Shown piece by piece: positions 5,104-33,170 of a DNA stretch of 57,585 nt (positions within the stretch are counted from its first letter, which is position 1; every line of letters starts with the position of its first letter). This DNA comes from Acinetobacter bereziniae (GTDB taxonomy: Bacteria > Pseudomonadota > Gammaproteobacteria > Pseudomonadales > Moraxellaceae). The stretch is taken from NCBI GenBank assembly GCA_009912575.1, contig WNDP01000008.1, forward strand, positions 1 through 57,585, read 5' to 3'. A model generated the notes under the pieces. It worked only from the letters and a program-made list of their open reading frames with translations. It had not been told where the DNA came from and did no database searches. The translations under genes and the position numbers were made by a program.

Positions 5104-5113
5104 TCTTCGATTG

Positions 5114-12168: not shown

Positions 12169-12228
12169 AATTATTTGTATCTGAATGATCTCTTTTAAAA
12201 ATTCAGCTAATCTGAAGCTTAACGTCAG

Positions 12229-12354
12229 ATGACACATAAGTTATCATTTTCTATTTCAAAAATTCAAAAGCTTAGCAATTCTGGCGACGCATAATGACAA
12301 TTTCAGCGACACAACAAGTGTCATTATCTTGGTTTCGCGACGAATAAGTTGTCA
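12229..12354. repeat. Left-end TnsB-site-like repeats
   Basis: Copies of the 18-mer lie at 12229-12246 (15 of 18 match GCGACACATAAGTTGTCA), 12306-12323 (14 of 18) and 12337-12354 (16 of 18). A half-copy with GCGACGCATAA begins at 12284. All have the same orientation, and they are inverted relative to the right-end copies. Spaced arrays of this kind are where TnsB binds in Tn7-like elements. Confidence 0.8.
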
Positions 12355-12361
12355 TTTTCTG

Positions 12362-12912
12362 AAAAGCAGATCTAGCGCTTTTTTATCTAGAGGTTGATTT
12401 AATTGGTAGTATTCAGAAAAAACGAAATATAGATTTAGTTGCTATTCAGAAACTATTTGTGCTTTAAAAGTTGGCTAGAACAATTTGATATGAAGTGATT
12501 TATCAAATCGTAGATTAGGTGAGTCTTACAAAACGACAAGAAATGATGTCTCGTAATCGTAATAAGGGACATCAATAGAGTTGATAGTTAGAAGAAAATT
12601 GCACTATCTTGGGTTTAGATATCACCCCAAGGTTGGAAACTTACCTAGGAAGTCTGATTTGGTATTAAAAAAAATAAGTTATGTATTTTGTACATGGATA
12701 TTTTTGGCTAGAGAGATTTTTGAAAAATAGAATTCGCGATGAAAAAGTAGAAGCTAGCTTAGGGGTTTAGTTTGGAGTGTTTTGGCTATTTGGGAGTGTT
12801 AGGTGAAGAGGAAGGGTAAATTAAAATAATTCCTCTCTTCAGAATTACCAATACGAACTGATTGTGTAACAAATGGTTGAAGCGAGAGTATTGAACTTCA
12901 TGAAAACCTATA
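12362..12912. other. AT-rich non-coding stretch inside the left end
   Basis: No convincing reading frame, RNA or terminator is visible. The motif TATTCAGAAA occurs twice (about 12417 and 12451). The stretch separates the transposon end from the first cargo gene and presumably holds that gene's promoter. Confidence 0.45.
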
Positions 12913-13287
12913 ATGATTAGTTTAGAAGACTTTATGATAGCGCACTGCATACAGCAAGATGAGATATTTATTGAAGTACTTCGTGAAAAGAACCAATGCC
13001 CGCAGAAGGCCTTGATCAATGGAGCCTCTTCTAAAAGATTACTTCGGCTATGGAGTCAATTTATTCGAATGAGAGACAATCATTCATGTGTAGTTTGTGG
13101 CCAAACTGATAATGTAGCAGCCCATCATATTTGTCGTAAGACATTTCTACCTCGAGCTCAATTTGAAACAGGGAATGGTATATCCCTATGTGGTTCTTGT
13201 CACCGCTACGTTCATCAGGGCTTTAATGGACGTCCTGATTTCAATTTACCAATGGATAGCCAAAGTGGGGAAAAATTGACACAATGA
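12913..13287 (+). CDS. HNH endonuclease-domain protein
   Basis: The C-terminal half of this 124-residue protein holds a zinc-bound HNH nuclease fold. It contains CVVCGQTDNVAAHHICRKTF (CxxC, then AHH, about residues 58-77) and ISLCGSCHRYVHQG (second CxxC with the following histidine, about residues 93-106). The N-terminal half is helical. It may nick or cut DNA or RNA. The stop overlaps the start of the next gene in ATGA, so the two are translationally coupled and may act together. Its place at the edge of a defence island suggests a restriction-like role, which is inference. Confidence 0.82.
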   Translation: MISLEDFMIAHCIQQDEIFIEVLREKNQCPQKALINGASSKRLLRLWSQFIRMRDNHSCVVCGQTDNVAAHHICRKTFLPRAQFETGNGISLCGSCHRYVHQGFNGRPDFNLPMDSQSGEKLTQ

Positions 13288-13556
13288 GTTGGCTTTATGG
13301 TGAATTAGAAGATAATGCTAGAAAGCGAGGGATATTAAGTGATGAGTTTTATTATTTGAGTGACTCCACTTTAATAGTTTTTAAAAGATTTCAAACTTAT
13401 CGTGAGAATACTTATTTCGCTGGCTGTCGGTTGGAGCAAGTCAACTCGATTTGGCGTAATTCGCCTATGACGCTTATTAATGCTGTATTAGAGGCTAATG
13501 GTCTTCCTATACTGAGGGATCCATTTCCATTGGATATTGCAGTGTTTTTTGACTAA
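13284..13556 (+). CDS. Small partner of the HNH protein, unknown function
   Basis: A 90-residue acidic protein coupled to the HNH gene by a four-base ATGA overlap. It has no signal peptide, membrane segment or cysteine cluster; the middle (STLIVFKRFQTYRENTYFAGCRLEQV) suggests an alpha/beta fold. It could be a regulatory or immunity subunit of the HNH protein, judged only from the coupling. I do not recognise a family. Confidence 0.6.
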   Translation: MSWLYGELEDNARKRGILSDEFYYLSDSTLIVFKRFQTYRENTYFAGCRLEQVNSIWRNSPMTLINAVLEANGLPILRDPFPLDIAVFFD

Positions 13557-13689
13557 GACGTAATCAATCATCACAAAACAAGCAAAGATTCTTCACATAA
13601 ATAGTAATTTTTATATAATGTATTGAGCAAAAAAAATTTTAGTCAGAAATGTGCTTACTTGGCATAGTAGCTTTAAATGGGGGAGGTTA

Positions 13690-13941
13690 ATGAGATTCAG
13701 AGAAAAAAACAATATTTGGGATAAGATACCACAATGGGTGGAATCTATGATTAAATTTGGTTATGAGTGGCAGAAACAAGAAAAAAATTCTAGAAGAATA
13801 GCATTACTATCTTTTCCATGTGATACCGAGTCAGCAGCACTTATTGCATTAGGTGCTCTTAGATATGATTTAGAAAGAGCTGATACAAATATTTTAGATG
13901 ATCATTTCAAACTAATAAAAAAAACTACTATGAAAATATGA
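13690..13941 (+). CDS. Small first gene of the drm operon, unknown function
   Basis: The frame is open from GTG 13651, but ATG 13690 is preceded by a strong GGGAGG (13681-13686), giving 83 residues. The recognisable stretch is RRIALLSFPCDTESAALIAL, a hydrophobic helix-rich unit followed by GALRYDLERA. The gene overlaps the next one by ATGA. It opens a tightly packed operon that runs through the DrmB-like gene, so it probably belongs to the defence system. No function is assigned. Confidence 0.6.
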   Translation: MRFREKNNIWDKIPQWVESMIKFGYEWQKQEKNSRRIALLSFPCDTESAALIALGALRYDLERADTNILDDHFKLIKKTTMKI

Positions 13942-14699
13942 ATAACGTGCTTGAAGATAATAAATGGTGGGATTTAAGAAATGTTGAGTCAGGTGAATGC
14001 TTTAAATTTGAATCATACGATACGGCAACAGATAGTTTTAAAGTAGTTGATAGTAAATATAAGTTTAAGATTAAGTCGAAAGGGCGAATTATAAAAAACC
14101 CTAATGGTCCTCTTAAATTAGAGATTTTTAGAGAAAATTCTCATAGGTATCAAATAAATGGTTACCCTGTTCCTTTTTTTGGGAAAGGAGGGGTTTCAAA
14201 ATTAAGTCATTTAAACATTAATTTACCTGGGTGTACTGGAAAAATTTTAGAAAAAAATTTAGATATCTCTTACTATGGGTTAGTGCTAATTGGAAGGGGT
14301 ACTTCCAATGATTCTAATTATTATAAAAGATTAGGCGATATAAGTTTTATAAAAGATGATTATCAATATTCACTTAAAAACTTACTTCTAATCGATGGAA
14401 ATATTAATGAAGACATTAGAAGATTAAACTTTCTCAGTAAATTCAAAGAGGAGGAGTGGGAGAAGTCTATTGGGGCTAAACTAGTTATAGTTGATAATAT
14501 AATAGCTTTAGAAGCTGCGGATGAGTTTTATCCAGAGAGTGATATCATTGTGACTTTTAATAGAGCAGGTTCAGAAGAATCTATTGAAATGATCAGGAAT
14601 TGGATTCTTCAAAAGCAAAGATATTATTGTGATATTGAAAATAAAAATGCTGATTTTTTTTCACAGAGTATCTTATTGCGTTTGCTAGTGAGAAAGTGA
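13938..14699 (+). CDS. Unknown protein of the drm operon, 253 residues
   Basis: I do not recognise the family. The protein is soluble. It is beta-rich at the N-terminus (residues 1-75). A central segment reads NLDISYYGLVLIGRGTSNDS, and the C-terminal half contains KLVIVDNIIALEAADEFYPE and a hydrophobic end. The alternating pattern in KLVIVDNII and DIIVTFNRA looks like a Rossmann-like alpha/beta unit. Its AT-rich composition differs visibly from the host genes. It is coupled to the 83-residue gene and sits just before the 523-residue gene. Together with the latter it could be a split counterpart of DrmE, the poorly characterised component of class 2 DISARM; this is a guess from position. Confidence 0.55.
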   Translation: MNNVLEDNKWWDLRNVESGECFKFESYDTATDSFKVVDSKYKFKIKSKGRIIKNPNGPLKLEIFRENSHRYQINGYPVPFFGKGGVSKLSHLNINLPGCTGKILEKNLDISYYGLVLIGRGTSNDSNYYKRLGDISFIKDDYQYSLKNLLLIDGNINEDIRRLNFLSKFKEEEWEKSIGAKLVIVDNIIALEAADEFYPESDIIVTFNRAGSEESIEMIRNWILQKQRYYCDIENKNADFFSQSILLRLLVRK

Positions 14700-14700
14700 T

Positions 14701-16272
14701 GTGAATGAAATAACTACTTCCAAATTACTATTTTATAAAAATGTAAATCCATCACAAGATAAATATATCGGTTATTCAATTATCTTTAATAAGATTAGAA
14801 AACTAATGTCTAACCTAATTTTTAAAATTCTAGATCATGGAGAAATAGTACAAAACAATGAGAGAGCATTATTACTTAGATTTGAATTTTTAAAGTTATT
14901 GCTGACCCCGAGATTGCCTAGTAAAAACATATTAAATGATTGTAAAATAAATGATAATTATTTGATTGGTAGACAATATGATGGTGTGGTGCTACAGATA
15001 GTTAATGATTTGAATGAACTTTTCCATGAATATCAAGTAATTGGCTCGATTTTAAATTCTGCAATAATTGAGTGTTATTTAGAATCTTGTGCACAATATG
15101 GTAGAGATAAAGTAAAAATATATTGCCGTCAAAGTGACATAGATATTTATAGAGAAATTCTTAAAGATGTATATGATTTAAATAGAGATGATTTTATCTG
15201 TAATATTTCTGATTATCGTTCGAGCCAACCTTTAGAGGTTTTATTTAGCTTTGGGCCATTCAGGTCTAAAGGTTTTTCTAAATTTCATGAACAAATTTTT
15301 CTAGCGCCGATATATAAAAAGCTCGTCCGATTTGTTTGGTGTGGCTTAAAGGATGAGCAAGAGTTTGGTTCGGATCCGGTGCTTTCAAGTTATAACTTTG
15401 TTTCAAATATGCCTTTAGAAGTTTTTGAAGTTAGTGATGATTTAAATAATGAAGAGGAATTGACAGTTATTGATGATGACATTGGACTTCTAGATTTAAT
15501 AGTTGAGCCTATATTTGATGATTCGACTCAAAGTATTCTTATAGAGTTGTCTAAAAATCAAGGAGTTCTAATAAGACCAAAAGCAAATGTCTTAGTATAT
15601 AATCCCAATAACACTGAAAGTAAAATTTACTATTTAAATGCTAATAGTATTGAAGATGGTTTATTTTTAATTACTCATACAGTTGAAGCTGATCTTGGTG
15701 GAGTTGGTTTTGATATTTCAAATGCTCCCTTAGCAAGAATCTGGAAGGCTGCTTTAAAAGAATTATTTAATCGATCCCCTGAAGCTTGTCTCCAACAGTT
15801 ACATAATGCTGGGGTCATACTAAAAGATCCATACAGGGCTATCGAGAGTTGGATCTCTTTTAATGGTTCCGTTGTCACGGCTCCACTCAAAAAAATACAT
15901 TTTAGACTTCTTTTAACAAAGGTTTTGAATGATATCAAAATATCTGAAGTGATGATTGGGCGGAGAACAATTCAGGGTTGGGAAAGAGCTTGGAATGAAG
16001 TTGAAAAATCTAGAGGTAACGCTCAAAAGCATGGAAAACTTGAACATGAAATTATCGATGAGCAGCTTATTAGTGAACTCTATAAATATATTGATGATGA
16101 AATATTGAGGAATAAAGAAACCTTCTTTTTTGAGATATCGTCAGGTGATGGTTTAAAAGGAACAGTTACTCTAGAAAAAATTAACTCGGTAAGTTTTGGA
16201 TATTCAGCACCAACTGAAAAGTTAAATCTTCACATGCACTTAGCTTTGCTTGAACAGTATAAGATTATTTAA
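14701..16272 (+). CDS. Unknown 523-residue protein, DrmE candidate
   Basis: The start is GTG, one base after the upstream stop codon, and no in-frame ATG lies close, so translation is probably coupled. The protein is soluble and acidic, with a helical N-terminal half, an acidic patch (NEEELTVIDDDIGLLDLI, about residues 256-273) and a C-terminal region with GRRTIQGWERAWNEVEKS near residue 420. That region suggests a nucleic-acid-binding or protein-contact domain. It has no helicase or nuclease signature I can see. By position between small unknown genes and the helicases it is the best candidate for a DrmE-like subunit, but I cannot confirm homology. Confidence 0.55.
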   Translation: MNEITTSKLLFYKNVNPSQDKYIGYSIIFNKIRKLMSNLIFKILDHGEIVQNNERALLLRFEFLKLLLTPRLPSKNILNDCKINDNYLIGRQYDGVVLQIVNDLNELFHEYQVIGSILNSAIIECYLESCAQYGRDKVKIYCRQSDIDIYREILKDVYDLNRDDFICNISDYRSSQPLEVLFSFGPFRSKGFSKFHEQIFLAPIYKKLVRFVWCGLKDEQEFGSDPVLSSYNFVSNMPLEVFEVSDDLNNEEELTVIDDDIGLLDLIVEPIFDDSTQSILIELSKNQGVLIRPKANVLVYNPNNTESKIYYLNANSIEDGLFLITHTVEADLGGVGFDISNAPLARIWKAALKELFNRSPEACLQQLHNAGVILKDPYRAIESWISFNGSVVTAPLKKIHFRLLLTKVLNDIKISEVMIGRRTIQGWERAWNEVEKSRGNAQKHGKLEHEIIDEQLISELYKYIDDEILRNKETFFFEISSGDGLKGTVTLEKINSVSFGYSAPTEKLNLHMHLALLEQYKII

Positions 16273-16282
16273 GAGAAAAATT

Positions 16283-17983: not shown

Positions 17984-17985
17984 GG

Positions 17986-20900
17986 ATGGATAACTTGAAG
18001 GTAAATCTAGAGCGAGCTTTAGAAATTGAATTTATTCGTTCCGAGTTAATGGGACCCAGTCGTTTGTTAAATGCTGATCAAAAAATTGAATTGATCTGTT
18101 TTGATGAAAATTTGAGCTTTCGACCTAAGGAAGGTGCAAGCAATATTTGCTTTTGGAAGCAAGACAACTCCGAAGTTTTACAAGAAGTTATTTCTTATCG
18201 ACGTGAGAATCCTTTTCAAAAATACGGGGTTGGGGTTCTTTATCCTCTAAATGATAAAGTCGATCCTATTGAAAGTGATACTGATGAAGACTCGCAAGGA
18301 AGTGATGAGGGCGGAGATCAAATTTTGATGGAGGAAACTGAAACACCAGTAGTTGAAGGTAAAAAAATTTCTCCCAAGTATCCTATGAAGTTTATGATGA
18401 TAACGATCAGGATTTTTCGCTCAGTAAAAATGATACATATAGACCATCATTAATTGGAGTTAGTTTTTGCCTTGAAGCATCATCGCCCGAAACCGTGATT
18501 GTTGTGTCATTACCATCTGAAAAGAAATTTTTCTGGCAGATAGAAACAGCTTTACCAATTCAACTTAATGGTGGATATGAGCTTTGTAAAAAAATAGTAA
18601 ATAATGACAATAAGGAAAAAACACTCGATGCTTGGCGTCGAATTGCACTAACCACCATTGATACTAAAATTAAAGTCAAACTTAATGACTTAAAATTAGG
18701 GGAACCTTACAAGGAGGAGCTCAATTCTAAATTTGGGCCTAGATTACAAATTGAATTATTCCCTAGAAAAATACTAAATAAAGTAATTATTACATGTGTA
18801 TTAAGGAACTTAACTGATTCATCAAATTTAAATTCACATTCTGATAGAATAAAAAACTCTCTTTTTCAAAGCTATTTTGAAGTTAGTCTAGAAGGGGGGA
18901 TTTTTTCTAAATATCCTGAAGGAGTTAGAACTTTTGAAAAACTTGATACTGATGAGCAAAATTTAGCTCTTCTTTACAATGATGCAGCAACTTGGGCTAT
19001 TGGACATGGATGTGCTGCTGCATGGGATGTTATTGATGGAGATATTCCTTCGATAATTTATGCTGATTGTATGCCAGCAGTCCAACTACCTAGCATGACT
19101 CCGGATATCCGAACCAGTTCTGGTATGCCTATTTCTTTGTCAATGAGAGGCCTTTCGGAGCTTTCCCTCAACTCATTTGATAATGATGGTTGGGAGGCCT
19201 TAGACTCACTTATAGAAGAATATCAAAACTGGATTGAGAGAAAAAATATAGAGTTAGATGCTTATGATCATAAATTCCATGAAATTGCTAAGAAAAATAT
19301 TTTAGATTGTCAAAATTGTTTAATTCGAATGAAGGCTGGGTTAATAACAATTCGGAATAACTCCATAGCATTAGAAGCCTTCAAATTAGCAAACCAATCA
19401 ATGCTATTGCAGCAGATTTCATCTAAGCAATTAGAGGCAAGAGGGCTGACCCTTTTGGACGGATATGTTGGTGCTAAAAAATTAGATCAGGGTGTTTATC
19501 GTACTCCATGGGAGATTTTAGTTAATAAAGCTGAAAATTCAAACTTGGGAACATGGCGTGCCTTTCAAGCTGCGTTCTTATTACTAAGTATTGATGGCTT
19601 GGTCAATGAGAAGTCCACTGACAGAGAAGTAGTTGATCTGATTTGGTTCCCTACTGGTGGTGGTAAGACAGAAGCATACCTTGGTGTAGCTGCCTTTTAT
19701 ATGTTTTATCAAAGATTGATTGCTAATAGATTAGATCAATTCCCAAGAGACGGTACAAACGTTTTTATGCGTTATACCCTTCGGATGCTTACTACCCAAC
19801 AATTTCAGAGGGCTGCAAGCTTAATTTGTGCAATGGAGCATATACGAAAAAATAGCAATCAAAATAACAAACTATCATTTTTGGGAGAGAAGCCTTTTTC
19901 ACTTGGGCTTTGGGTTGGAGGAGACGGTTCCCCAAATACTTGGAAAGATGCTGAAGAAAAGATATCCTCCTTCAGGAAGTTCGGGAAGGGGGGTAACCCA
20001 TTAGTACTATCCGAATGCCCTTGGTGTAGAAGTGAAATCGGTCGTCTTAATGAAATTATTACGAAGAATATTAAGTATAAATCAATAGAACTTCTTGCTG
20101 GAATTCAGAAAGATAAGGATAAAAAATATTATCTAAAATGTTCAGATAATATGTGTGATTTTGGAGGAGAGTGGTCAAGACTACCAATCGAAGTTATTGA
20201 CCAAGCTATATACTCCAATCCACCATCGATGTTTATAGGTACAGCAGATAAGTTTGCTATGATGGCTTGGAAGCCAGAAACTGGTGCTCTTTTTGGATTA
20301 AAACATACTAAAAGTGGTCCTGTTAAGAGACAAAGTCTCCCCCCTGGCTTGATAATACAAGATGAATTTCATCTAATATCTGGTCCCCTTGGTACGATTT
20401 ATGGCTTATATGAGGGGGTAATTGAAAAATTATGTACTGATAACAATGGTATTCCTCCCAAAATCATAGCTTCAACTGCAACCATTCGAGGTGCTGAGAA
20501 GCAAGTTAAATCAATTTACTGTCGATCAAAATTCCAATTGTTCCCAAGCCCAGGGTTACAAATGAGTGATTCTTTTTTTGGCAGGTATGCCACCGATGAT
20601 CATGGAAAACTATTAGAGGGTAGGTTGTATCTTGGGATTTATGCTGTGGGCTATAATTCGTTCTTAACCACTCAAGTTAGAACATATTCTGCCGCCCTTT
20701 TCAGAGCAAAACTTTTTGAAAAGAAGAAAAGAGATGCTTGGTGGACTCTTCTAACTTTCTATAATAGTTTGAGAGAGTTAGGTGGTGCTAGAACTCTGTT
20801 TAGTTCAGATATTACAGCAAGATTGGGAGATCATGCCAATAGATATGGAGTTCAGGGGGAGGAAAGACGGTATTTAAATAGCATTGAAGAATTAACCAGT

Positions 20901-21656
20901 CGTAGGACTCAGGCTGAGTTAGTTGGGCTTATGAATCGACTGAGTTCGGATTGCAGTGACCATAATGCAATTGATGCTTGCTTAGCATCTAATATCATTG
21001 AGGTTGGTGTAGATATCGATAGACTTGCTCTTATGGCAGTTGTTGGTCAACCTAAATCTACAGCACAGTATATTCAGGTTACTGGTCGTGTTGGACGACG
21101 CTGGTGGGATAGGCCCGGGTTAATATTGATGATGTATAACCCTTCTAAAAGTAGAGACTTATCACATTTCGAACAGTTTCATAGTTATCACCGACGATTA
21201 TATGAACGTGTTGAACCTACATCTGCTACTCCCTTTTCAATAGAGTCAGTTAAACGGGCTGCAATTGGTGCCATTTTGCTATGGGCACGACAACAATATG
21301 ACGCTGAACAACCTAGTGAGTCCTTAACTCATTTTGAGGAAGCCTTACGTCAAGGGTGTGAATACTTAAAAGTGAGATGTCAGCAAGTAGAGCATGAACC
21401 AATGGAAATTAGTCGTGCTCAACAGGCAATCCAATCAGTACATGATGAACTAATTAAGAAGTGGAAAGGAAACCCTCAATTATGGTGGGATTATCCTCAA
21501 GAGTCTGATGGTGAGTACTTAATGCTATGGTCTGGTGAACACGCAACTTCTGACCAAAAAAGAAAGGGTGTTCAAGTTTTAAGTAGCATGCGTAATGTGG
21601 ACAGTAGTGTTCAAGTTGAAATTTCTAGTCGGTATTTTAGTGAGGAGGGGCAATAA
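17986..21656 (+). pseudogene. drmA: DrmA-like helicase, interrupted by a frameshift
   Basis: DrmA is the helicase of DISARM that, with DrmB, forms the DNA-sensing core complex. The N-terminal piece (155 residues, with YGVGVLYP near residue 80) ends in an out-of-frame stop after a run of seven A at 18361-18367. With eight A the frame reads G-K-K-N-F-S-Q-V and continues without interruption into the 1053-residue piece, for about 1223 residues in total. The large piece has Walker A WFPTGGGKTEAYLG (about 19650), a zinc-ribbon-like CPWC...CSDNMC (20017-20160), the DEFH box in IIQDEFHLISG and IEVGVDID plus QVTGRVGRRWWDRPG near the end, as in DrmA and DUF1998-associated helicases. Whether the lesion is real, phase-variable or a sequencing error is open. 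Confidence 0.82.
18361..18367 (+). other. A7 tract at the drmA frameshift
   Basis: Seven A follow GGT in the reading frame. One extra A restores the drmA frame. The in-frame context (GGT AAA AAA ATT) is not a good tandem -1 slippery heptamer, so a plain deletion or polymerase slippage is likelier than programmed frameshifting. Confidence 0.75.
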
Positions 21657-23469
21657 TGGCTAATGAAATACGTACAGGACAGTTAATTGCCCCATTTGGT
21701 GTAGGAGGTAGCTTCAGACCCTAATGTAACCAATAGATATATTATTGATGAGCCAAGGCTTTCTAAGCTTTTAGATATTCCATTCTTTCGACAACCACCA
21801 CAATATGTTAATGATATTAAATCGCCTCTCTATGGGCTAACTGTTCAGACGCACAGATTTCCGAAATGGTATTATGACTCAAGGTCGGGGAAATTAAAGA
21901 AATTTAATTTAGATACTTTAAAGTGTTCATCTCCAAATAAAGAGCAATGGCGTCCTGTTAGATTTATTAGCGTATGTAGTAAGGGGCATATTTCTGATTT
22001 TCCTTGGAAACAATGGTGTGGATGTATTTGTCCCAACGATGAATATTTGACACTTCATGATACTGGTGGTCCAGATCTAGGAGCTGTAATTGTATCCTGT
22101 GGTGGATGTAAGTCTAGAAAGTCTTTGGCTGGAGCAATGGTTCTAAATAAAAATAAGAAAACGAATAGAATCGAAAGCTCGGGTTTGGCAAATGCAGGAA
22201 TTTCAACATGTCAAGGTGAACGTCCTTGGTTGGGAGATGCTGATGAGGAGTGCGATGAGCTTCCAGTTGCTGTACTCATTAATCAATCAAATATTTATTT
22301 TGGAAAGGTTATTTCTTCAATTTATTTGCCAAATTTAAATGGCGAAGAGCAAATTATTGATATCCAGAATGCACTGACAGGTTATGATTCAGAGTTAACT
22401 TTTGCCAAAATGTGTTTTGAATTTGGGCAAGATGATGTTGCAGTAGAAAAGTTAAAGAAGTTTATTTTAGATAAACTAAGTTTTCTCCCTGATTCAAAAA
22501 TAATTAAGGAAGCAATTCTTAATCAGGGGAAGGCCAAAGTAATAATTAATGAAATTGATGCCCCAGTATTAGAAGAGAGTAAAGAGCTTGAGTTTCGTCG
22601 AGCAGAATATAATATATTAAGAAATGAGGTTCCACTAGGAACTAGCGAAGAGCTTAGAGTATCAATTGGAGTTGTTCCTAAAGAGTTTCATGATTGGCTT
22701 AATCGAGTTAACTTGGTTGAACGATTACGAGAAACACGTGTTTTCTATGGCTTTGAGCGTTTAATACGTTCAGATAACCCTAGGGCGGATATGCCTAACA
22801 GTGCATTGAGTCAGTTATTTAAGAAAATTCCAGAACAGAAATGGTTACCTGCTGTTAAAAATTTTGGTGAGGGTATTTATCTAGAACTAAAAGAGGAAGC
22901 TATTGCGAATTGGTTAGATGTTAATTCTACTTGGTTACAAAAAAGACTTGATGCCGATTTTGTTGGACGTCTAGTTGCAGAGGGAATGTTGTTTCCTCCG
23001 GTTGATCATTTAAATCAAAATTGGAAGTGGGCTGCAAGGTATTTATTAATTCATACATTTGCTCATATCTTAATTAATCAACTAGTTTTTGAGAGCGGTT
23101 ATTCTTCTGCTTCTTTAAAGGAAAGAATTTTCATTTCAAATGATCCTGTTGCTCCAATGGCTGCATTTTTAATTTATACAGCTTCAGGAGATTCAGAGGG
23201 TAGTTTAGGGGGGATTAGTTCGCTTGGGACGCCCTGAGTTATTTGAGACAATGGTTAAACGTGCCATAGCTAAGGCTTCTTGGTGTTCTGCAGATCCCGT
23301 TTGCTCTGAGGATCTTGGCGGCACCGGTTCTAGGCTTGTAAATAAGGCCGCATGTCATGCATGTGTGTTACTTCCAGAAACAGCCTGTGAAACAATAAAT
23401 TCTGGACTTGATCGGGCTATGTTAGTTGGTTTGCCTAGTGACCAATCAGTGGGTTTTTTTCTAATTTGA
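21656..23469 (+). pseudogene. drmB: DrmB-like DUF1998 protein, two lesions
   Basis: The ATG overlaps the drmA stop in TAATG and follows a strong GAGGAGGGG, so the two are coupled. The first 22 codons read RTGQLIAPFGVGG, typical of DrmB, then stop at TAA 21722. The next frame resumes with ASDPNVTNRYIIDEPRLSKL. A segment normally lying between these parts seems missing, so a short out-of-frame deletion near 21705-21712 is likely. A second shift occurs at a run of six G (23208-23213): with five G the frame reads SLGGLVRLGRPELFE and continues to the normal DUF1998 end with CSADPVC and CHACVLLPETAC. DrmB binds DrmA in DISARM. As written the protein cannot be made whole. Confidence 0.82.
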
Positions 23470-23485
23470 TAGATTGACTAGGAAT

Positions 23486-25054
23486 TCATTTGGTAACTAA
23501 CTTCCAAACAATTTCAGCTAATTGAGTGGCCAAATATGGGGGAACCGCGTTTCCAACCTGAACGTATTGTTGGGTTCTGGTTCCTTCAAAAAAATAGTTG
23601 TCTGGGAATGTTTGAATTCGAGCTGCCTCACGTACCGTGAGGCTTCGACACTGTGAAGGATCTGGATGAATAAAGTAATGCCCATCTTTTGAGATATGGC
23701 TTGTAATAGTTGTTGCTGGCCTGCCTTTGCGTTGTACTCGAAATCTATCTGAAAACTTTCCACTTTCCCAGTTCAAATGTGCTGGTTTTAATGAACTTGG
23801 AAAATCGGCAGATTTCGGAAATGGTTTATCCGTATTTCCAAAGACTTCTGCCCAAGAGGAGCTAAATAAATATCTTCCTAAATCACTATTCATATGACCT
23901 CGTGATTCATGATTTAATACTCTTTTATTAGGCGTATCAGTTTTAATCCAAGCTCTAAGTTCTTTTGGCAACCTATGACTTATTGATTCATCAGTATAAA
24001 ATTTATTTTGAGTTGGTAGCTCTATTTTAAATTTATCCTTTGTTAATTTTAATAATGATTTACGTAGTTCTTTTAGATGTTTATGCTGAGCCAACTCGTT
24101 AACTATTAAAGCTGATTGATTTTTAATGACCGAGCTCCAATTAAGAAAAGAGTCTTTCTCTTTTGAAAGTTTACTTCTTAAAGCTGGGAGACCATCTAGG
24201 ATATCCTCTATAGGAATCTTAGGTTGTGGTGTGAGTATAGTGGGGGTGACATTTATATCTGTAGCTACCCCTAAAAGAATAACCCTATGGCGTGTTTGAG
24301 GAATTCCATAATCTTCAGATTTTATGACAAAGTCTGCTAGATCTGAATATTCGTTAGCTAATCCTAATCTGTCGGGTGTTTTTACGAAAGAGTAAATCTG
24401 ATATTTTCTATTTGATGTACCGCAGCCTGTTGCTAGATTAGGAGATTGTAAATCATTTAATATTCTTGGAAAAATTAACTCATCATTAATTTTGGAAGAA
24501 AGAATTCCCTTGACATTTTCCATGACAAAAACATCGGGCTCAATGATTGAAAGTACCTGTAAGTATTCTTTGTATAGAAAATGTCGGTGGTCTGTTTCTG
24601 GGGAATAATCTTTGATTCCCTTATTTCTTGCACGGCCTACTAAAGAATAGGCTTGACATGGTGGTCCCCCAATTACAATCCAAGGCTCATTTTTATAAAT
24701 ATTTTTTAACTCAACTAAACGATTATGAATTTTTTCATTATCAATCCCAAGGGCTGAGGGTTGATGCAAAGTTTCCGATAATGCTTCACTCCATTCTAGG
24801 GGGTGAAGCTCAATTAATTGATTTTTTGATATTTTTCCATCAGTATAGTCAAAGTATGATGAAAGATTCTTAGTTCTTTTTAGAATTCTGAAAAATGCTC
24901 TCAATGTTAAAGTCGCGTGAGCACTTGGCTCTTTCTCAACAGAAATACGGATATGAAAAGGAGAGGTATTTTCTATGCTGGTAAAAGAGCTAAATCCTTC
25001 TCCAAGCCCACCAGGGCCAGCAAAAAGGTCAACTATATTAATTCTTTTGTTCAT
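23486..25054 (-). CDS. Cytosine-C5 DNA methyltransferase (DrmMII-like)
   Basis: All main m5C methyltransferase motifs are present in 522 residues: VDLFAGPGGLGEGF (motif I), GGPPCQAYSLVGRARNKG (motif IV with the catalytic Pro-Cys), MENVKG (motif VI), IPQTRHRVILLG (motif VIII), then the target-recognition region and QVGNAVPPYLATQLAE (motif X). Class 2 DISARM uses a methyltransferase of this type to mark host DNA. Here the gene is convergent with drmB, 16 bases away, and is intact although drmA and drmB are broken. It would keep methylating the chromosome as an orphan enzyme. The target site cannot be read from the sequence. An ordinary restriction-modification enzyme is the alternative, but no cognate endonuclease lies next to it. 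Confidence 0.92.
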   Translation of the reverse strand: MNKRINIVDLFAGPGGLGEGFSSFTSIENTSPFHIRISVEKEPSAHATLTLRAFFRILKRTKNLSSYFDYTDGKISKNQLIELHPLEWSEALSETLHQPSALGIDNEKIHNRLVELKNIYKNEPWIVIGGPPCQAYSLVGRARNKGIKDYSPETDHRHFLYKEYLQVLSIIEPDVFVMENVKGILSSKINDELIFPRILNDLQSPNLATGCGTSNRKYQIYSFVKTPDRLGLANEYSDLADFVIKSEDYGIPQTRHRVILLGVATDINVTPTILTPQPKIPIEDILDGLPALRSKLSKEKDSFLNWSSVIKNQSALIVNELAQHKHLKELRKSLLKLTKDKFKIELPTQNKFYTDESISHRLPKELRAWIKTDTPNKRVLNHESRGHMNSDLGRYLFSSSWAEVFGNTDKPFPKSADFPSSLKPAHLNWESGKFSDRFRVQRKGRPATTITSHISKDGHYFIHPDPSQCRSLTVREAARIQTFPDNYFFEGTRTQQYVQVGNAVPPYLATQLAEIVWKLVTK

Positions 25055-25383
25055 CTAAAATCTAGTTCCTTAACATGTTGTTAGAATAGCTGTAATTTGC
25101 TAAAAATTCTAGAAAAATAGAGAAAATAGGACGTTAATTGGGGATTGAACATACACCTATGTAGATTAAAAAATTACTTTAATTAGGGGGGATAATTAAT
25201 TGGTAATTGAACTTTTTAACTATTAGAAAACTTTATTTTACCAAGATTAATAAGTAGTAAGTCTTATAGGTTGTTTTGAGAAAAATTCACTATATTTATG
25301 TATTAGACATGAATTACCTTTTTCTATGGTAAGAAGTAACTTAAATATCTAATTGTTTACTTTTACATATCTTGAGGTGATAA
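25055..25383. other. Divergent promoter region, no gene seen
   Basis: Very AT-rich DNA between the leftward methyltransferase and the rightward exonuclease. The last bases (GAGGTGA before ATG 25384) are the exonuclease ribosome-binding site. No RNA gene or clear operator is visible. Confidence 0.45.
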
Positions 25384-25836: not shown

Positions 25837-25905
25837 ATTCTAGAAGTAAGTGCGAATTGATAAGTATATCAATTCACCGATCAATGATGACCTAAACAGA
25901 ACTTT

Positions 25906-27872
25906 TTATGGGTTTCTGTTCTTCATACATTGCACATCTGATCTCTTAAAAAGACGTATCGGGCTTCCTGTGCCAAGATAAATAGGTTGGATTAACCCCT
26001 GAGTTTGTAAATTGGTAATATGTGAGTGAGGCATACCTAGTAATTTACTGGCTTCAGCTCCCGTCATATAGGTTTCTTTCAACTTAAGTACTTCATCGAC
26101 ATCTTTTTGCTGAACGAGTTTCCAATACACCAGATTTTCTACCGTCAAAAAACCAGATTTGCACCAATATTCTCCTAACCAATTCACTGAACAATTGAGT
26201 AGCTTTGCTGCTTGCTTAGTGGATATTGAGTTTTCACTCAGCAATTTATGCTTTAGTCGAAGGACGGATACTTTGGGAATTTTAATGGACAAAGGATAAT
26301 TGGTATCTTTAACGAGAATTCCTTTTTTAATCAAAACAGAAACTTAATTGGGACTAATGTTTAAGTGTTCTGCTGCTTCATTTAACGAAAAAAAATCTTG
26401 CTTTGTTTTTAGTGGAGTAACGCTTTTTTTAGGCCTACCTGTAAGAGTAGGATACTGTATTATTTTTTCAAGATCAGATTTTCTTAGGTGATTAACAGAG
26501 CTCATAAGATATATATTTAGTGGGGAAGCATCGATATGTGGGCCTCGAATAGGAACAATCCCTATGCTTGCTAGTTTTTCAACAAGATTTGTTGGATTAA
26601 TGTCTAGTTTCTTTGCAATTGTTGAGACTAGAATATATTCACTCTTAAAACTTTCGAGTTTTGTAAAAGAATATCCTTCTGCTGCTTTAGCATCATTAGA
26701 TAATCTGTCCAAATCAAACCATCCCGTATTTGCTAATTTACGTGCAGTTTCATAATTTATGTCGAGAATATTTGAAATTTCCTTTAAATCTAATTGCTTG
26801 GGATGAAGATGGATTTCCTTGGTACGTGGTTTCCGTAATAAATTTTTATTTCTGTTTAATATTAAAAATTTTTCAATTGATTGGCTAGGAATAACATCAT
26901 AGTAATGATTAATATCACCTAGTTTTAGAAAATCTTGCTCAATCCAATCTTCGAGTGTGTTATGAGTAACTCCTAAAACAAGTTGTAACTCACGTTTTTT
27001 TACCCCAACGATATGACTTTTATCACTTGGGGTATATGTATGGCATTTTGCCTCAACTAAAGCTGCATAATTTTTAAAAATCTAGAATGTTTCAAAAATG
27101 GGAGCAATTGGATTCTTGGATGAGCTAGATTAATTCTTTGATTAATCAAAGTACTTAATCTAATTATGGATTGATTACGATTATTAAAATATTCGTATAT
27201 CAGTTCTAATGTAGTTTCATTATCTATAACGTTATCAAGCTCGAAAAAACCTCGTATTGCTAGCCAAAAGGCAGTGAAATATTGAAAAAAATCGTTCGAA
27301 TCATGGTTCAAAGTTTCTACAAACCATCTGATTGCTCGTATTGAACTACATTCAATCTTAGGTGCATCTTGCAATAGCGCATGGCAATGACGGCACTTTG
27401 TCACTCCTGAGCTAAGAGATATTGAGGATCCACATTGATAACATTTATCGACAAGGAAAATAGAGTGTATTGGACATGCATATAAGGGTTGTAAAAGCCA
27501 ATTTTTTTTAAAAAATGGCTATTCTTCTAAGCATTGTGGGCAATAGGAACAAGGATAGTATTTTAATAAATCTTCATGTAGTTCTATATTGCTCCATTTT
27601 CTCGCTGATCGGCTCGTGGGGCCAGCTTTTGCAAAGGCAAGACTTTGATGATTTGGGTCAACATTAAGTAGTTGTAAGACATATTTAAAACGCGGAAGAT
27701 CTGCTAATCTACAATTCGGTGCGCTTTTTGCCAAGAAATGGCGCTGCTCTTTATTAATTAATCTCTCGATAGATGAATGCCTATTAAGCTCAGCAAGTCT
27801 AGCTAAGAAGCTCACAGCCGATTCGCCATCATAAGGAATGGGATGAATAAGAAGGTTGCTAACTGATGTCAT
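25906..27872 (-). pseudogene. TniQ/TnsD-like target selector, decayed
   Basis: Restored, this gene would encode about 655 residues, the size of a TnsD protein. The N-terminal TniQ domain starts MTSVSNLLIHPIPYDGESAV and includes zinc ligands in CSYCPQC and, further on, in CYQCG and CRHCH. Three lesions break it: an in-frame TAG at 27519-27521, a one-base loss in the A/T run at 27071-27080 and an in-frame TAA at 26344-26346. After each the homologous reading continues (PFFKKNWLLQPLYACPIH, NYAALVEAKCHTYTP, VSVLIKKGILVKD). The C-terminus has repeated helix-turn-helix units such as GAEASKLLGMPHSHITNLQ. TnsD proteins read the end of the attachment gene and recruit TnsC. Its start overlaps the tnsC stop by four bases. 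Confidence 0.85.
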
Positions 27873-28846: not shown

Positions 28847-30698
28847 AACTTACAGCTGGTTGTGGAGCATTCTGTTGCTGGGGGATAGCTGTGAGTTCTT
28901 CGTTAGTTGGATGAGAAGTTAACTCAGACTCCAGTCGTGTAAGCTGTTTAGGTAGCTCAATTTTGAATTGTTTCAGTTTTGGTTTTTTACGGACAAGATC
29001 CTTTTGTATATCTTTCATAAGCTGATATAAATTATAAAGATCTGCATGTTTACCCAGTCTTTGTCTATCGGATCCAGACATCTGTTTTTTACGCTTCTGA
29101 ACTTCTAGGTGAACATTGCGAGATAGGTTATACGTGTATTCAGGTTGAGTAGAGTCTGCTTGAATGATTAGATCCTTTTTATCTGGGTGTATGATATAAA
29201 CTTTACTCAGATCTAAATCATCAACAAGTACAGTAACTTTTTTGATGCCATCAGCTTTCAATGTGGTAAGTGCATGTGAAAAGTAACTAAGCCCATCAAT
29301 AATCACTTGCCCATGATTGATGTTTCGGTCAATAGGTCTTCTACAAATAATATCAGCATCGATTTTAGTTAAAGATGCAGGCTTTGTATGCTCAATAGCA
29401 TCTTGCCATGCAATAAGAGGGGCTCGTCCAGTAGTACTATGTATTGTTTGCTGATAAACCATTTTTATCCAAGAGTCGACGTATTCTTTAACCTTGTCTA
29501 ATGTAAGACTAGCTTTTCTGGATGAATCATATTCTCCTCGTGCTGTAGGGTTGGAGAATGTTGTACCTGGAAGTTTTTGCAGAATACCTTCTGTTAATGT
29601 GCTGAAGAAGCGTTCAATATGAGGTTTGTTGTTTGGCGTCCCGATTTGCGATGGTGTGATAGTAATTGAGAGTTGTTTACATACACGTGCTAGAGCATTG
29701 TTTTTAAACTCAACACCATTATCTGGAATGATAATAGAAGGAACTCCACCAGGTAGTTCGTAACTATGGCGTGTAATCATGTCTTTGATTACAGCTAAAG
29801 TTGTGAGTGCACTAGGCGGAAACATACTGATGTAGGTCCCGACAATGGCACGTGTATATGTATCGATGGCGCAAGCCAGAAAAGGTCGTCCGAGTGTTTC
29901 TCCAGTTTCAGGATCGATGACGATGATATCTAGATAATGGGTGTCGATTTCTACAGTATGTAGAGCAAATGAGGTTGGAGCACTTATGCCAGCAGCCTGA
30001 AAATATTTGCGAGCGATACGACTTCCTTTCTTAACACGCATTTCAATATAAGGATCTAATTTTGCAATAGATCGCTGTATGGCTCTAAGGCTAGGTAAAT
30101 ATGTAGTTGGAATATTTTGTTCATTAAGCTTGCATAATACGAAAGCCCTCACATCTTTGCTTGTCCGATGCTCTGGTTGTAGATATATCTCGGAAATAAC
30201 CTGTTTGATTATTTGATAGACTTCTGGTGGGTATCTTAGCGTCTTATTACCTTTACCATGTTCGCTTAGGCTGAGAGCGTTATGGCTACTCATTCGATAT
30301 TGCAATATCCAGCGCGCAACAGTTCTTGCTGATGGTGGAGAGGCATCTTCAATTTCTAATGCAATTTCTTGAATGAGTTCTCGAAGTGGTTCAATAGAAG
30401 TGGGGGCTGTCAGTTTTGCTAGGGCAGTGAGCACATAGCGTTCTTTACGACGAATGGTTGAACAACTGTCTGGATTGATGAATAGCTTTTCTGGAGCGAA
30501 GACACATTGAATTTCTCCAGTTTTATAGCGAGTTTCAAAGGTACTGGCGGAAATGGAAAATGGTTTTCCTCCTGCAATTGATGCATAGCGGATTACACCA
30601 TAATTAGATGAGGTAATTTCAAATACATGTTCATGATTAGCAAAAGTGAATCGAAATCCAGGTTGAGGGATGAGTAATGGCTTTTCCATTTTAGACAT
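28812..30698 (-). CDS. tnsB: TnsB-type DDE transposase
   Basis: This 628-residue Mu/TnsB-type transposase joins the 3' ends of the element to target DNA. N-terminal helix-turn-helix regions (about residues 80-200, with PPSARTVARWILQYR) bind the end repeats. The rve core has Asp in VEIDTHYLDII, Asp in IIIPDNGVEF and Glu in NKPHIERFFST, the DDE triad. A Mu-type beta-barrel and a basic C-terminal tail (KKPKLKQFKIELPKQ) that likely contacts TnsC follow. It overlaps tnsA by eight bases. The gene is intact. Confidence 0.94.
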   Translation of the reverse strand: MSKMEKPLLIPQPGFRFTFANHEHVFEITSSNYGVIRYASIAGGKPFSISASTFETRYKTGEIQCVFAPEKLFINPDSCSTIRRKERYVLTALAKLTAPTSIEPLRELIQEIALEIEDASPPSARTVARWILQYRMSSHNALSLSEHGKGNKTLRYPPEVYQIIKQVISEIYLQPEHRTSKDVRAFVLCKLNEQNIPTTYLPSLRAIQRSIAKLDPYIEMRVKKGSRIARKYFQAAGISAPTSFALHTVEIDTHYLDIIVIDPETGETLGRPFLACAIDTYTRAIVGTYISMFPPSALTTLAVIKDMITRHSYELPGGVPSIIIPDNGVEFKNNALARVCKQLSITITPSQIGTPNNKPHIERFFSTLTEGILQKLPGTTFSNPTARGEYDSSRKASLTLDKVKEYVDSWIKMVYQQTIHSTTGRAPLIAWQDAIEHTKPASLTKIDADIICRRPIDRNINHGQVIIDGLSYFSHALTTLKADGIKKVTVLVDDLDLSKVYIIHPDKKDLIIQADSTQPEYTYNLSRNVHLEVQKRKKQMSGSDRQRLGKHADLYNLYQLMKDIQKDLVRKKPKLKQFKIELPKQLTRLESELTSHPTNEELTAIPQQQNAPQPAVSFGSLKVKRHDK

Positions 30699-31428
30699 CC
30701 TTGCTTGAATGATGATTTTTTAGGCTGATTAATGTGATTACTTCATGAAAAAGCAAGTAGTCACCTAATCGGGGATCTAGATCTTCTTCTTGTAGGGTTT
30801 TATATACTTGCTCGGAATATTTGAATTTATGAGATTTTAAGGCTTCTGTTGCGAGCTCAATTTCATATTTCGTCCAAGAGCATGTATGGCCTCGTTGATA
30901 CCAATGCTGTAATTGTTGTAGGTCTTTATTCGATGGCAAGCTTTTCTGGTCAATCAGTCGAAATGCAATGTTTAGAGGATGTAGTAAGTTTGCTAACCTA
31001 AGAAATTTGTCTAGATCATTTACAGATAGACAGGAGATATTAGGTTTAATTTCATGAACTTCATATTGGTTATTGATTGTTTTGACTAAGAAATCTGGGT
31101 AGCAGAATTCCTTTTCTCCAAGAGCGATTTTGAGAGCTTGAGATCTAAAACATTTAACCTGTGGGTTTTTCTCAAGACAAATAGCATGTGCTAATTCAAG
31201 ACGACTTTCGGTAGGAATGGAGCCTCCAGATTTTGCGCTGGGGAAAAGTGCAGTTCTTCGACCATAGCAGCCTTGGTAGATTTTCCTTTGACCATGGATT
31301 GTAGAGGCAAGATTCGGCTCTGCTTTAAAAGCGTTATTAATTTGATTGAGAATAGATTGATAAGGATTGTGTTTATCATCAAAAGAAAAAGCGTACATAT
31401 AGTATTTCCAGTATGTATAGCCATTCAT
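30691..31428 (-). CDS. tnsA: TnsA-type endonuclease subunit
   Basis: TnsA cuts the 5' strands of the element so that it moves by cut-and-paste rather than as a cointegrate. The core reads PTESRLELAHAICLE (catalytic Glu), then CYPDFLVKTINNQYEVHEIKP (Asp, then Glu-x-Lys), the restriction-enzyme-like TnsA fold at about residues 75-135. The protein is 245 residues long, close to the family's usual length. It heads the leftward tns operon and is intact. A stem-forming CATCCC/GGGATG lies at its start codon and may limit translation. Confidence 0.9.
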   Translation of the reverse strand: MNGYTYWKYYMYAFSFDDKHNPYQSILNQINNAFKAEPNLASTIHGQRKIYQGCYGRRTALFPSAKSGGSIPTESRLELAHAICLEKNPQVKCFRSQALKIALGEKEFCYPDFLVKTINNQYEVHEIKPNISCLSVNDLDKFLRLANLLHPLNIAFRLIDQKSLPSNKDLQQLQHWYQRGHTCSWTKYEIELATEALKSHKFKYSEQVYKTLQEEDLDPRLGDYLLFHEVITLISLKNHHSSKDV

Positions 31429-31454
31429 CCCATTTTTAGGGATGAGTTAATTCT

Positions 31455-31471
31455 TGCGTAAAAAATACGCA
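31455..31471. promoter_or_regulatory. Palindrome upstream of tnsA
   Basis: TGCGTA and TACGCA flank a run of five A. It lies between tnsA and the probable small-RNA promoter, where a repressor acting on either could bind. No T-run follows on the tnsA-proximal side, so it is more operator-like than terminator-like. Confidence 0.45.
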
Positions 31472-31475
31472 AAAC

Positions 31476-31504
31476 TTGACTGTTGGCTCTATACGGAAGA
31501 TACT
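31476..31504 (+). promoter_or_regulatory. Strong sigma-70-type promoter
   Basis: TTGACT, exactly 17 bases, then GATACT. It reads away from tnsA toward a terminator only about 40 bases further on. The spacer contains GTTGGCTCTATAC, which pairs with GTATAGAACCAAC at 31531-31543 (12 of 13). Confidence 0.65.
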
Positions 31505-31510
31505 AGGATT

Positions 31511-31567
31511 CTCACATCTCTATATTTAACTGTATAGAACCAACGGATCCGAAAGGGTCCGTTTTTT
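31511..31567 (+). ncRNA. Probable short RNA of the transposon, about 57 nt
   Basis: A good promoter ends just upstream, and an intrinsic terminator closes the unit: CGGATCC, GAAA loop, GGGTCCG, then TTTTTT. No reading frame fits between them. The transcript would lie in the gap upstream of tnsA. A role in controlling transposition, or as an antisense or decoy RNA, is possible but not shown. I do not recognise an RNA family. Confidence 0.5.
31544..31567 (+). terminator. Intrinsic terminator of the short RNA
   Basis: A seven-pair stem (one G-T pair) with a GAAA tetraloop, followed directly by six T. Confidence 0.82.
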
Positions 31568-31651
31568 ATTTGAGTAAAATTTTATGTCATGGCTTACTTC
31601 TCCTTATGTTGTTGGCTTTTAATCTGAGTAATCAGTAGTTTATAAACTTTT

Positions 31652-31921
31652 CTATTTTTTAAGCTCTTGTTGCGTAATAGCAGCATTACGTTGTTTGACT
31701 AACCACTCTGCTACATCTTTGACTAGTGCATATTTCCCGCGACGGTTTTCAACAGAGAAGACTGGGATAGGTACAGTTTTTCTTGTAAGTGCTTTTCTGA
31801 ATGCGTCAGTGGATCGATAGCCTAGAGCCACTCGTAATGCATCATCTGCAATCATCGGGCCATGGCGTTCAAAAAGCTCACGTTCAATGGTTTCTACACT
31901 AACTGGAGTGATGTGCTGCAT
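31652..31921 (-). CDS. Small DNA-binding-like accessory protein
   Basis: This 89-residue protein has a helix-turn-helix-like core: DALRVALGYRSTDAFRKAL (about residues 26-44) followed by VFSVENRRGKYALVKDVAEW, which resembles the wing region of excisionase-like proteins. It probably binds DNA and may regulate the tns genes or itself. Phased TGTCCTA repeats lie just upstream of its start. It sits between tnsA and the right end, as an accessory gene of the element. I cannot name the family. Confidence 0.65.
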   Translation of the reverse strand: MQHITPVSVETIERELFERHGPMIADDALRVALGYRSTDAFRKALTRKTVPIPVFSVENRRGKYALVKDVAEWLVKQRNAAITQQELKK

Positions 31922-31930
31922 TCCGGCTCT

Positions 31931-31950
31931 GTCCTAGCTTGTCCTAACAA
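31931..31950. promoter_or_regulatory. Phased TGTCCTA direct repeats
   Basis: TGTCCTA occurs at 31931 and 31941, exactly one helical turn apart, just upstream of the small DNA-binding-like gene and in the region between it and the divergent 325-residue gene. This is the layout of an operator for a cooperatively binding regulator. Confidence 0.5.
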
Positions 31951-32083
31951 TATGATATAGACGGATGGAGAGTTATACTAGAAAGGCAAAATCTGTATTA
32001 ACTTTACTCTATTAATAGTATTTAATTATATAATTTACAAAGACTAATTTAATTTAGGGTTCTGATTTAAAAAAGGGACTTAT

Positions 32084-33061
32084 ATGAGAGAGACGTGTCG
32101 TAAGAGGCGTGATGATATAGATATTGTGAGAGTAAAATTTTGGTACGAGGAGGTGAGATATAGGTTGTCATTAAAAACGTCTTATCAAGTTGAGAAGGCT
32201 ATTGAACCAATGGCATTTGGGAAAAATGAATATGGAGATCCTTATCACAACAATAAGTGGTCAGGCTATGCCGTTGGACGGCATACACCTAATAAGCGAT
32301 TAGTTGAATTGGTAGAACAACAACTACGCGGTACTTCTGAGGTGCTTAATAATATTCTTTGGGAAGCAATACGTGGGCACAAGGGAGTGGATTGGCTTAT
32401 CAAGGAAGGAATAAGATATCTTCCATGGGAGGTTCAAAGGATTTTATATAAATACAATAAAAATGGATTATCTAACGAGTTGTTTTCTTTTTTATATACG
32501 AAAGAGCTTCAGAGACTTGAACGACTAGCTGGATTAGACTCTTTAGCTGCCTTGATTATTTTTTTACGTATTGCAGATAGTAAAAACTACAGAACAGCTG
32601 CCTTCGATATAGGATGCTCAATATATCGAGTATTATTAATAGTATGTACATTTCCGTACTATAGAGAGCACAATGCTGAGTTATTACAGTTGATGAAACG
32701 ATATGTATTTCCATTAGCTCATGATGGAACTAAGTGCGTTGCAGTTGAAAATGAAGAGGGTTTTCCTTTAGAGGTTGAATATTTGAATAATGCTTTGCTG
32801 AAGTTGGAGAATGAAAGAGAAGGGCATCTGACCCAGAAGCAAAAAATACATGTGATGTTAGATATGATTCATGGTTCAGGAAATTTTATACATAAATTAA
32901 TTTTCTTTATTCCTTTTGAGATTAAAGATGACCCATCAGCCGATAATTTAGCCAACTTGTTAGAAATACAGAAAATGAAAAAATGGACAATAGAGTGTCT
33001 TAAGCGTGGTATTGCACCACTAAGTATTGACTCAGTTGAGTTTAGTCCCTTTAGTCACTAA
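32084..33061 (+). CDS. Unknown 325-residue protein at the transposon right end
   Basis: I do not recognise this protein. The N-terminus is basic (RETCRKRRDDIDIVRVKFWY). The segment YAVGRHTPNKRLVELVEQQL near residue 62 looks like a DNA-binding helix pair, and the middle (residues 130-200) is helical and leucine-rich without clear transmembrane segments. The gene is divergent from the small DNA-binding-like gene and ends in a terminator just before the right-end repeats. It may be an accessory or regulatory gene of the element. Confidence 0.6.
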   Translation: MRETCRKRRDDIDIVRVKFWYEEVRYRLSLKTSYQVEKAIEPMAFGKNEYGDPYHNNKWSGYAVGRHTPNKRLVELVEQQLRGTSEVLNNILWEAIRGHKGVDWLIKEGIRYLPWEVQRILYKYNKNGLSNELFSFLYTKELQRLERLAGLDSLAALIIFLRIADSKNYRTAAFDIGCSIYRVLLIVCTFPYYREHNAELLQLMKRYVFPLAHDGTKCVAVENEEGFPLEVEYLNNALLKLENEREGHLTQKQKIHVMLDMIHGSGNFIHKLIFFIPFEIKDDPSADNLANLLEIQKMKKWTIECLKRGIAPLSIDSVEFSPFSH

Positions 33062-33064
33062 GTT

Positions 33065-33099
33065 GAAAAAAGGCTGCAACTTGAGTTGCAGCCTTTTTT
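33065..33099 (+). terminator. Intrinsic terminator at the transposon right end
   Basis: GGCTGCAAC and GTTGCAGCC pair around TTGA, flanked by AAAAAA and TTTTTT. It closes the unknown right-end gene and, being symmetrical, could also stop nrdB transcripts entering the element. Confidence 0.9.
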
Positions 33100-33112
33100 A
33101 CTATTGTGTCTA

Positions 33113-33151
33113 TGACAACTTATGTGTCGCAAATGACAACATATGTGTCGC
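33113..33151. repeat. Right-end TnsB-site-like repeats
   Basis: TGACAACTTATGTGTCGC (33113-33130) and TGACAACATATGTGTCGC (33134-33151) differ by one base and are three bases apart. They are the inverse of the left-end copies. The second copy most likely abuts the terminus. Confidence 0.85.
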
Positions 33152-33170
33152 GTGACGGTGACGTTAATCT

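Follow-up and report, generated by a model that had tools for sequence, protein, structure and literature searches.

A 20.9-kb Tn7-like element (positions 12223–33163) lies directly behind nrdB in the stretch of Acinetobacter bereziniae DNA analysed here, its right end 7 bp beyond the nrdB stop codon. This stretch, referred to below as the window, is the complete contig C314 (57,585 bases) of a 5.16-Mb draft genome in 335 contigs (G000). The element is very probably a member of a family of Tn7-like elements that land 3–15 bp behind nrdB in Acinetobacter, this copy carrying a defence island system associated with restriction–modification (DISARM) of the NERD type and a dead tnsD. The core genes, the end arrays, the nrdB site shared with relatives and the Drm profiles bear out the proposal of the first-pass annotation that a Tn7-like element with a site of its own carries a cargo of DISARM type.

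Both ends of the block carry inward-pointing arrays of TnsB-like sites of ~19 bp (12.2–12.36 kb and 33.11–33.15 kb), and the inverted repeat arrays first reported as bracketing it were thereby recovered. Sites with at most four mismatches lie at 12229, 12306 and 12337 on the left and at 33112 and 33133 on the right; one weaker internal site, with four mismatches, lies at 32153 within an open reading frame (ORF) of 325 aa. A 20-base end motif matched three times in the window compared to 0.01 expected, and none of 100 shuffles reached three matches. The left-end motif, at up to two mismatches, occurred four times in the 5.16-Mb genome and every time at one of the two ends; a reversed control pattern gave two matches. 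The exact borders, initially placed at 12228 and 33151, were corrected to 12223 and 33163; without the doubling of the terminal hexamer at the right end, the right border falls at 33157. The same doubled hexamer was found in G035 and G063, and the family ends in relatives read CGTCA...TGACG.

The annotated core genes tnsA, tnsB and tnsC are all open in the window, with Pfam matches for each and a PDB match for TnsB; the tnsA profile match is below its cut-off, and the tnsA-like product is 40–56% identical to the ORFs in the tnsA position of relatives. The gene order in relatives is nrdB, cargo, 325-aa ORF, 89-aa ORF, tnsA, tnsB, tnsC and tnsD, with TnsD a single protein of ~650 aa in L060, L064, L065 and L069. 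In the window the gene annotated as a TnsD-size tniQ is a pseudogene. Its DNA is 97% identical to the tnsD of Acinetobacter pollinis and contains an in-frame stop, then a frameshift, then a second in-frame stop. The TniQ-domain ORF is 117 aa, and the remainder of the ~655-aa TnsD is spread over three further ORFs. An intact TnsD-size TniQ was rejected on the basis of these two stops and the frameshift. Because tnsD is dead, the element is probably unable to move to nrdB by itself. The 89-aa protein upstream of tnsA is perhaps a regulator of transposition, which is a guess. Another contig of the same genome (C223:56086-57291, L243) holds a further, distantly related TnsB-like gene, 34% identical, with a TniQ-like match nearby; this locus lacks the nrdB-type TnsD C-terminal region described below.

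The nrdB attachment site and the TnsD C-terminal region

DNA behind nrdB was collected from 120 Acinetobacter species genomes, the window's own included. In 47 of these genomes a Tn7-type end was located no more than 60 bp from the nrdB stop codon, 34 of them with ends of the window's type (F1), four with F2 ends and nine with F3 ends. The distance from end to stop codon was 3–15 bp (in the window, 13 bp from the inner and 7 bp from the outer hexamer), while the same end motifs gave a single match 200–1500 bp behind nrdB, some stretches being shorter than that. Across the genus Acinetobacter, the 3' end of nrdB is an attachment site for Tn7-like elements, and the site of its own that had been suspected for the element is also used by its relatives.

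An insertion at this site can be seen by comparison of G108, where a 17,052-bp element (L064) is present, with G011 and G052, which are empty at the same place. In the latter two the sequence behind nrdB matches the outer flank of the G108 element at 91% and 83% respectively. The comparison with element-free relatives proposed in the first-pass annotation thus shows a filled and an empty state for this family member; in no relative was an empty site with the window's left flank found. Perfect 5-bp target duplications were present in four of the seven elements with both ends visible, the window among the seven: AGTAA in L058, AGCTA in L063, AATTA in L064 and CTAAA in L068. The outer flanks in the window are CTTAA on the left and TTAAT on the right, so that a common TTAA abuts both ends.

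In Tn7, TnsB binds the end arrays, TnsA and TnsB cut, TnsC is an ATPase adaptor and TnsD selects the site. The same division of roles would apply to the present family. To relate TnsD to the site, the A. pollinis protein was split into residues 1–250 and 381–655 and compared with the fetched loci. The C-terminal region was found in 17/17 nrdB-site elements whose DNA reaches tnsD (15 nrdB-site loci plus G009 and G078; one of the 17 is the A. pollinis query itself, and L059 and L066 were excluded as their stretches end before tnsD). It was found in none of 18 TnsB-bearing loci elsewhere, a fetched subset of the non-nrdB matches. Given this distribution, the region is likely to be an nrdB-recognition module. 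Three of the non-nrdB loci (L082, L083 and L239) have a TnsB 44–45% identical to that of the window, compared to 35–38% for the F3 elements at nrdB. As these loci have a nearer TnsB than the F3 elements, the site tracks the TnsD C-terminal region and not TnsB. Neither nrdB nor an nrdB-type TnsD was observed within the fetched stretches of L082, L083 and L239. In a sample of 341 genomes from the order, only a few of which were Acinetobacter, the best TnsD match outside the window's own genome was 34% over ~100 residues.

From this co-occurrence, the extended C-terminal portion of TnsD, which has helix-turn-helix domains, would most likely read the nrdB 3' end. Insertion keeps nrdB whole and brings in exchangeable defence cargo. 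The window copy carries a NERD-type DISARM cassette, with its DrmMII methylase gene still open. We lean towards a wider reading, in which the C-terminal region is dedicated to reading the 3' end of nrdB and defines a genus-wide family of exchangeable defence islands, and in which the cassette (DrmE-like protein, NERD-UvrD helicase, DrmA, DrmB, DrmMII, no DrmC) is a DISARM class undescribed in the literature searched.

Cargo genes and the DISARM-type cassette

A scan of named genomes with six short peptide patterns, a method that reaches only close relatives, returned one relative, A. pollinis SCC477. Its NrdB is 85% identical to that of the window and its element core at nrdB has 94.1% DNA identity over 6,610 bp, compared to 80% for nrdB and nrdA. 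This difference suggests transfer of the element core between species as the simplest reading. An exonuclease-like ORF of 150 aa is also common to both, at 92% identity (L134). In A. pollinis tnsA, tnsB and tnsC are split and type I restriction genes adjoin tnsD; these genes are presumably inside the element, whose left end would lie beyond the fetched stretch. For most relatives, left ends were not found within the fetched stretches.

Ten large cargo ORFs hand-picked from five nrdB loci were scanned, and nine matched defence models; one ORF from G027 matched none. The matches were Avs2 and viperin in G027, Tmn in G035, a CBASS cyclase and E1-E2 in G088, a type I methylase, a specificity subunit and an AAA protein in A. 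pollinis, and a partial ThsA-like match in G108. The nrdB-site elements examined carry other defence genes than the window's. It is quite improbable that the locus is a generic hotspot for defence islands, with passive remnants of tns genes and a cargo moved by homologous recombination of the flanks. Such an origin would fit the dead tnsD in the window, the split core genes in A. pollinis and the partial spread of Tn6171 by flank replacement described in passages of PMC8190619; the excess of core over flank identity to A. pollinis, the 5-bp duplications in four relatives and the intact tnsD of several relatives argue against it.

The defence block initially called DISARM-like has DrmA, DrmB and DrmMII profile matches, and the call was upheld in this respect, but drmA and drmB are frameshifted, at ~18.36–18.45 kb and near 23.21–23.24 kb respectively. 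A second drmB frameshift near the start is perhaps indicated by one 13-residue match. Given the frameshifts in both genes, the system in the window probably does not restrict.

The layout resembles DISARM class 2 (type II in PADLOC) in its DrmA, DrmB, DrmMII and probable distant DrmE. It differs in the lack of a detected DrmC, in an extra NERD-UvrD gene and a further gene, and in the broken state of drmA and drmB. No DrmC or PLD match was found among the scanned element ORFs with Pfam and PADLOC, and no match to DrmD or DrmMI, the class 1 proteins, in the PADLOC scan. DrmC is required by the PADLOC class 2 model (passages of PMC9252829) and is described as dispensable and often missing in passages of PMC9142583.

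The same cassette order was found in the loci L127, L129, L135, L156 and L157. Listed by genome or plasmid, it occurs in Rhodococcus opacus pROB02, G096, G082, G724 and G842, where it reads unknown gene, protein of ~455–570 aa, NERD-UvrD, DrmA and DrmB. These NERD-type cassettes differ from that of the window in lying away from nrdB; pROB02 is a plasmid, and those of G096 and G724 are near an integrase-like ORF, as judged from the ORF start. A NERD-UvrD gene adjoins drmA in L127, L129, L135, L136, L156 and L157. The first cassette gene, two ORFs in the window, is one ORF of 334–380 aa in G724 and G842. DrmA was present in five of 176 Acinetobacter genomes (the window's own, G096, G082, G038 and G122), of which G038 and G122 lack the full cassette layout by tblastn and the window's alone has DrmA beside nrdB.

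The 523-aa protein of the cassette is a probable distant DrmE, and only profile comparison, not plain alignment or BLASTP, connected it to this family. It had no direct match in Pfam, NCBIfam or PADLOC. The 253-aa and 523-aa proteins were 20–22% identical to the G096 and G082 proteins in the same positions, apparently unrelated by plain alignment, and showed no relationship to the R. opacus counterparts by BLASTP. In plasmid searches the 523-aa protein gave no match and its G082 counterpart one marginal match. A first DrmE profile ranked the 523-aa protein fifth with an E-value of 1.1, which is no support; with R. opacus added to the profile it ranked second (E 0.037), after R. opacus itself. 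Comparison of the group of the 523-aa protein with the drmA-neighbour group, two members of which pass the DrmE_C cut-off, gave an hhalign probability of 87% (E 4e-6).

Table 1. Features of the element and its attachment gene in the window
Feature	Position	Strand	Basis or remark
Left end	12223..12357	.	Terminal CGTCA and TnsB-like sites; arranged like the left ends of L063, L064, L068
HNH-like cargo ORF, 124 aa	12913..13287	+	Pfam HNH_2 E 0.0004, narrowly missing the cut-off
Cargo ORF, 90 aa	13284..13556	+	No family match
First cassette gene, two ORFs (96 aa + 253 aa)	13651..14699	+	Similarity detectable in 96-aa part only
Probable distant DrmE-like protein, 523 aa	14701..16272	+	Profile match to DrmE_C-bearing drmA neighbours
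NERD nuclease-like + UvrD-type helicase, 577 aa	16250..17983	+	Pfam NERD E 2e-12, UvrD_C_2 E 5e-9
drmA, frameshifted near start	17986..21656	+	ORFs 17986-18453, 18495-21656; PADLOC DrmA E 2e-199
drmB, frameshifted near 3' end	21656..23469	+	ORFs 22047-23237, 23224-23469; PADLOC DrmB E 2e-33; NCBIfam DrmB_fam below cut-off
DrmMII-type cytosine-5 methyltransferase, 522 aa, open	23486..25054	-	Pfam DNA_methylase E 3e-42; PADLOC DrmMII E 4e-92
Exonuclease-like ORF, 150 aa	25384..25836	+	Weak Pfam Rv2179c-like E 0.0014, below cut-off
tnsD/tniQ pseudogene	25906..27872	-	Intact 655-aa copy in A. pollinis aligns along it
tnsC (TniB-type AAA ATPase), 325 aa	27869..28846	-	Pfam TniB E 7e-23
tnsB transposase, 628 aa	28812..30698	-	Pfam Mu-transpos_C, rve; best PDB match Tn6677 TnsB E 4e-47
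tnsA-like endonuclease, 245 aa	30691..31428	-	Pfam TnsA-like N E 0.001, below cut-off; position
Conserved ORF upstream of tnsA, 89 aa	31652..31921	-	100% over 87 aa in A. pollinis; 53-76% in relatives' nrdB elements
ORF of conserved position, 325 aa	32084..33061	+	32-45% identity in relatives; no family match
Right end	33112..33163	.	Two TnsB-like sites and doubled terminal hexamer
nrdB, attachment gene outside element	33171..34538	-	Pfam Ribonuc_red_sm E 4e-92

Integrity of the insertion in the window

Several observations weigh against the assignment of the element to a family inserting at nrdB. By motif, 73 of the 120 nrdB sites had no Tn7-type end, several of them resembling decayed ends by eye, and the end motifs were derived partly from the same nrdB loci. 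The proposed recognition of nrdB by TnsD comes from co-occurrence. No perfect 5-bp duplication was found in the window, in L056 or at the weak left-end candidate of L091. The SDR gene of the left flank was beside nrdB in 0/176 Acinetobacter genomes, and ftsK, which lies near the window's left edge, was at least 115 kb from nrdB in the six relatives with both mapped on one contig. The lesions of tnsD, drmA and drmB could in principle be assembly errors.

A clean insertion in the window's own strain is unproven, since the left-flank gene is not beside nrdB in relatives. A good match to the SDR gene was found only in G078 (79%), on a different contig from its nrdB, with shorter matches in G103 and G137. 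The left-flank genes (108–10116) show synteny to a G079 region that is likewise on a different contig from its nrdB, while the block near nrdB in G079 corresponds to contigs C324 and C101 of the present genome. These displaced flanks, together with the imperfect duplication, would fit a hybrid block in which a left end from another insertion has been joined to the nrdB-side right half by recombination or deletion. This origin is possible but unlikely: TTAA abuts both ends, a single family layout fits the left end, the core and the right end, and the genome has no family end except those of the window, where a reciprocal product would have left extra end motifs.

It is improbable that sequencing errors account for the frameshifts and stops, with TnsD and DISARM both functional. 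The assembly is indeed a draft in 335 contigs, and a 1.6-kb part of the window recurs on contig C78 at 97.6% identity, but tnsD carries two in-frame stops besides its frameshift and long genes are open elsewhere in the window, such as 12 ORFs of 102–894 aa at 42590–57149. The repeated segment is window 1–1613, the ftsK 3' region, found at G000:C78:8230-9842 (L116); it may reflect mixed strains in the assembly or a duplication. A repeat of ~90 bp at L053:2564-2653 also occurs at the start of many contigs of this genome and is probably an unresolved repeat family.

Relation to known elements

Comparison of the core genes with Tn7-like families, as far as it was based on solved structures, identified Tn6677, a type I-F3 CRISPR-associated transposon (CAST), as the nearest for TnsB (E 4e-47) and, with the N-terminal part of the A. 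pollinis TnsD as query, for TniQ (E 2e-5). The element differs from this system in its nrdB site, in its targeting by a long TnsD and in that no cas genes or CRISPR array were found. Despite the nearness of TnsB and TniQ to Tn6677, descent from an I-F3 CAST by loss of cas genes is extremely unlikely: the long TnsD is the rule in the family, and the Pfam and PADLOC scans gave no Cas family beyond weak helicase matches, with no CRISPR-like array found. A CAST identity was rejected for the lack of cas genes and array.

The element shares with Tn7 and Tn6171, both at glmS, the TnsABC and TnsD set (tnsD being broken in the window), arrays of TnsB sites, insertion behind an essential gene and, in four of the seven family elements with both ends visible, a perfect 5-bp duplication (passages of PMC8190619 for Tn7 and Tn6171), but differs in its location at nrdB, in ends of CGTCA rather than TGT...ACA and in that no tnsE was identified. 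A broken tnsD is also described there for Tn6552, a relative of the glmS element. Tn6022, inserted at comM with TniQ and TnsF, is likewise a Tn7-like element of Acinetobacter (passages of PMC10293859); the window element differs in lying behind rather than inside its target gene, and no TnsF was seen.

In a survey of defence systems on 6,549 Tn7-like elements, DISARM is not listed in Table 1 and nrdB is not mentioned in its passages (PMC8649781), and neither DISARM nor nrdB appears in the passages of PMC10293859. The literature search, which did not cover supplementary tables, found no paper on a Tn7-like element that uses nrdB or carries DISARM, and the earlier impression that DISARM on a TnsABC/TniQ element had not been described stands within that scope. 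The nrdB site would add a new pair of TnsD and target in which three families of ends have one common TnsD C-terminal region, of use for studying DNA reading by TnsD and for site-specific insertion tools. It would also explain the variable defence genes at one place in many Acinetobacter genomes. The cassette offers a DISARM layout where a NERD-UvrD protein may replace the missing nuclease.

To the right of nrdB, the window contains at 41944–57149 a run of long plus-strand ORFs that by their sizes resemble the nuo (NADH dehydrogenase) operon.

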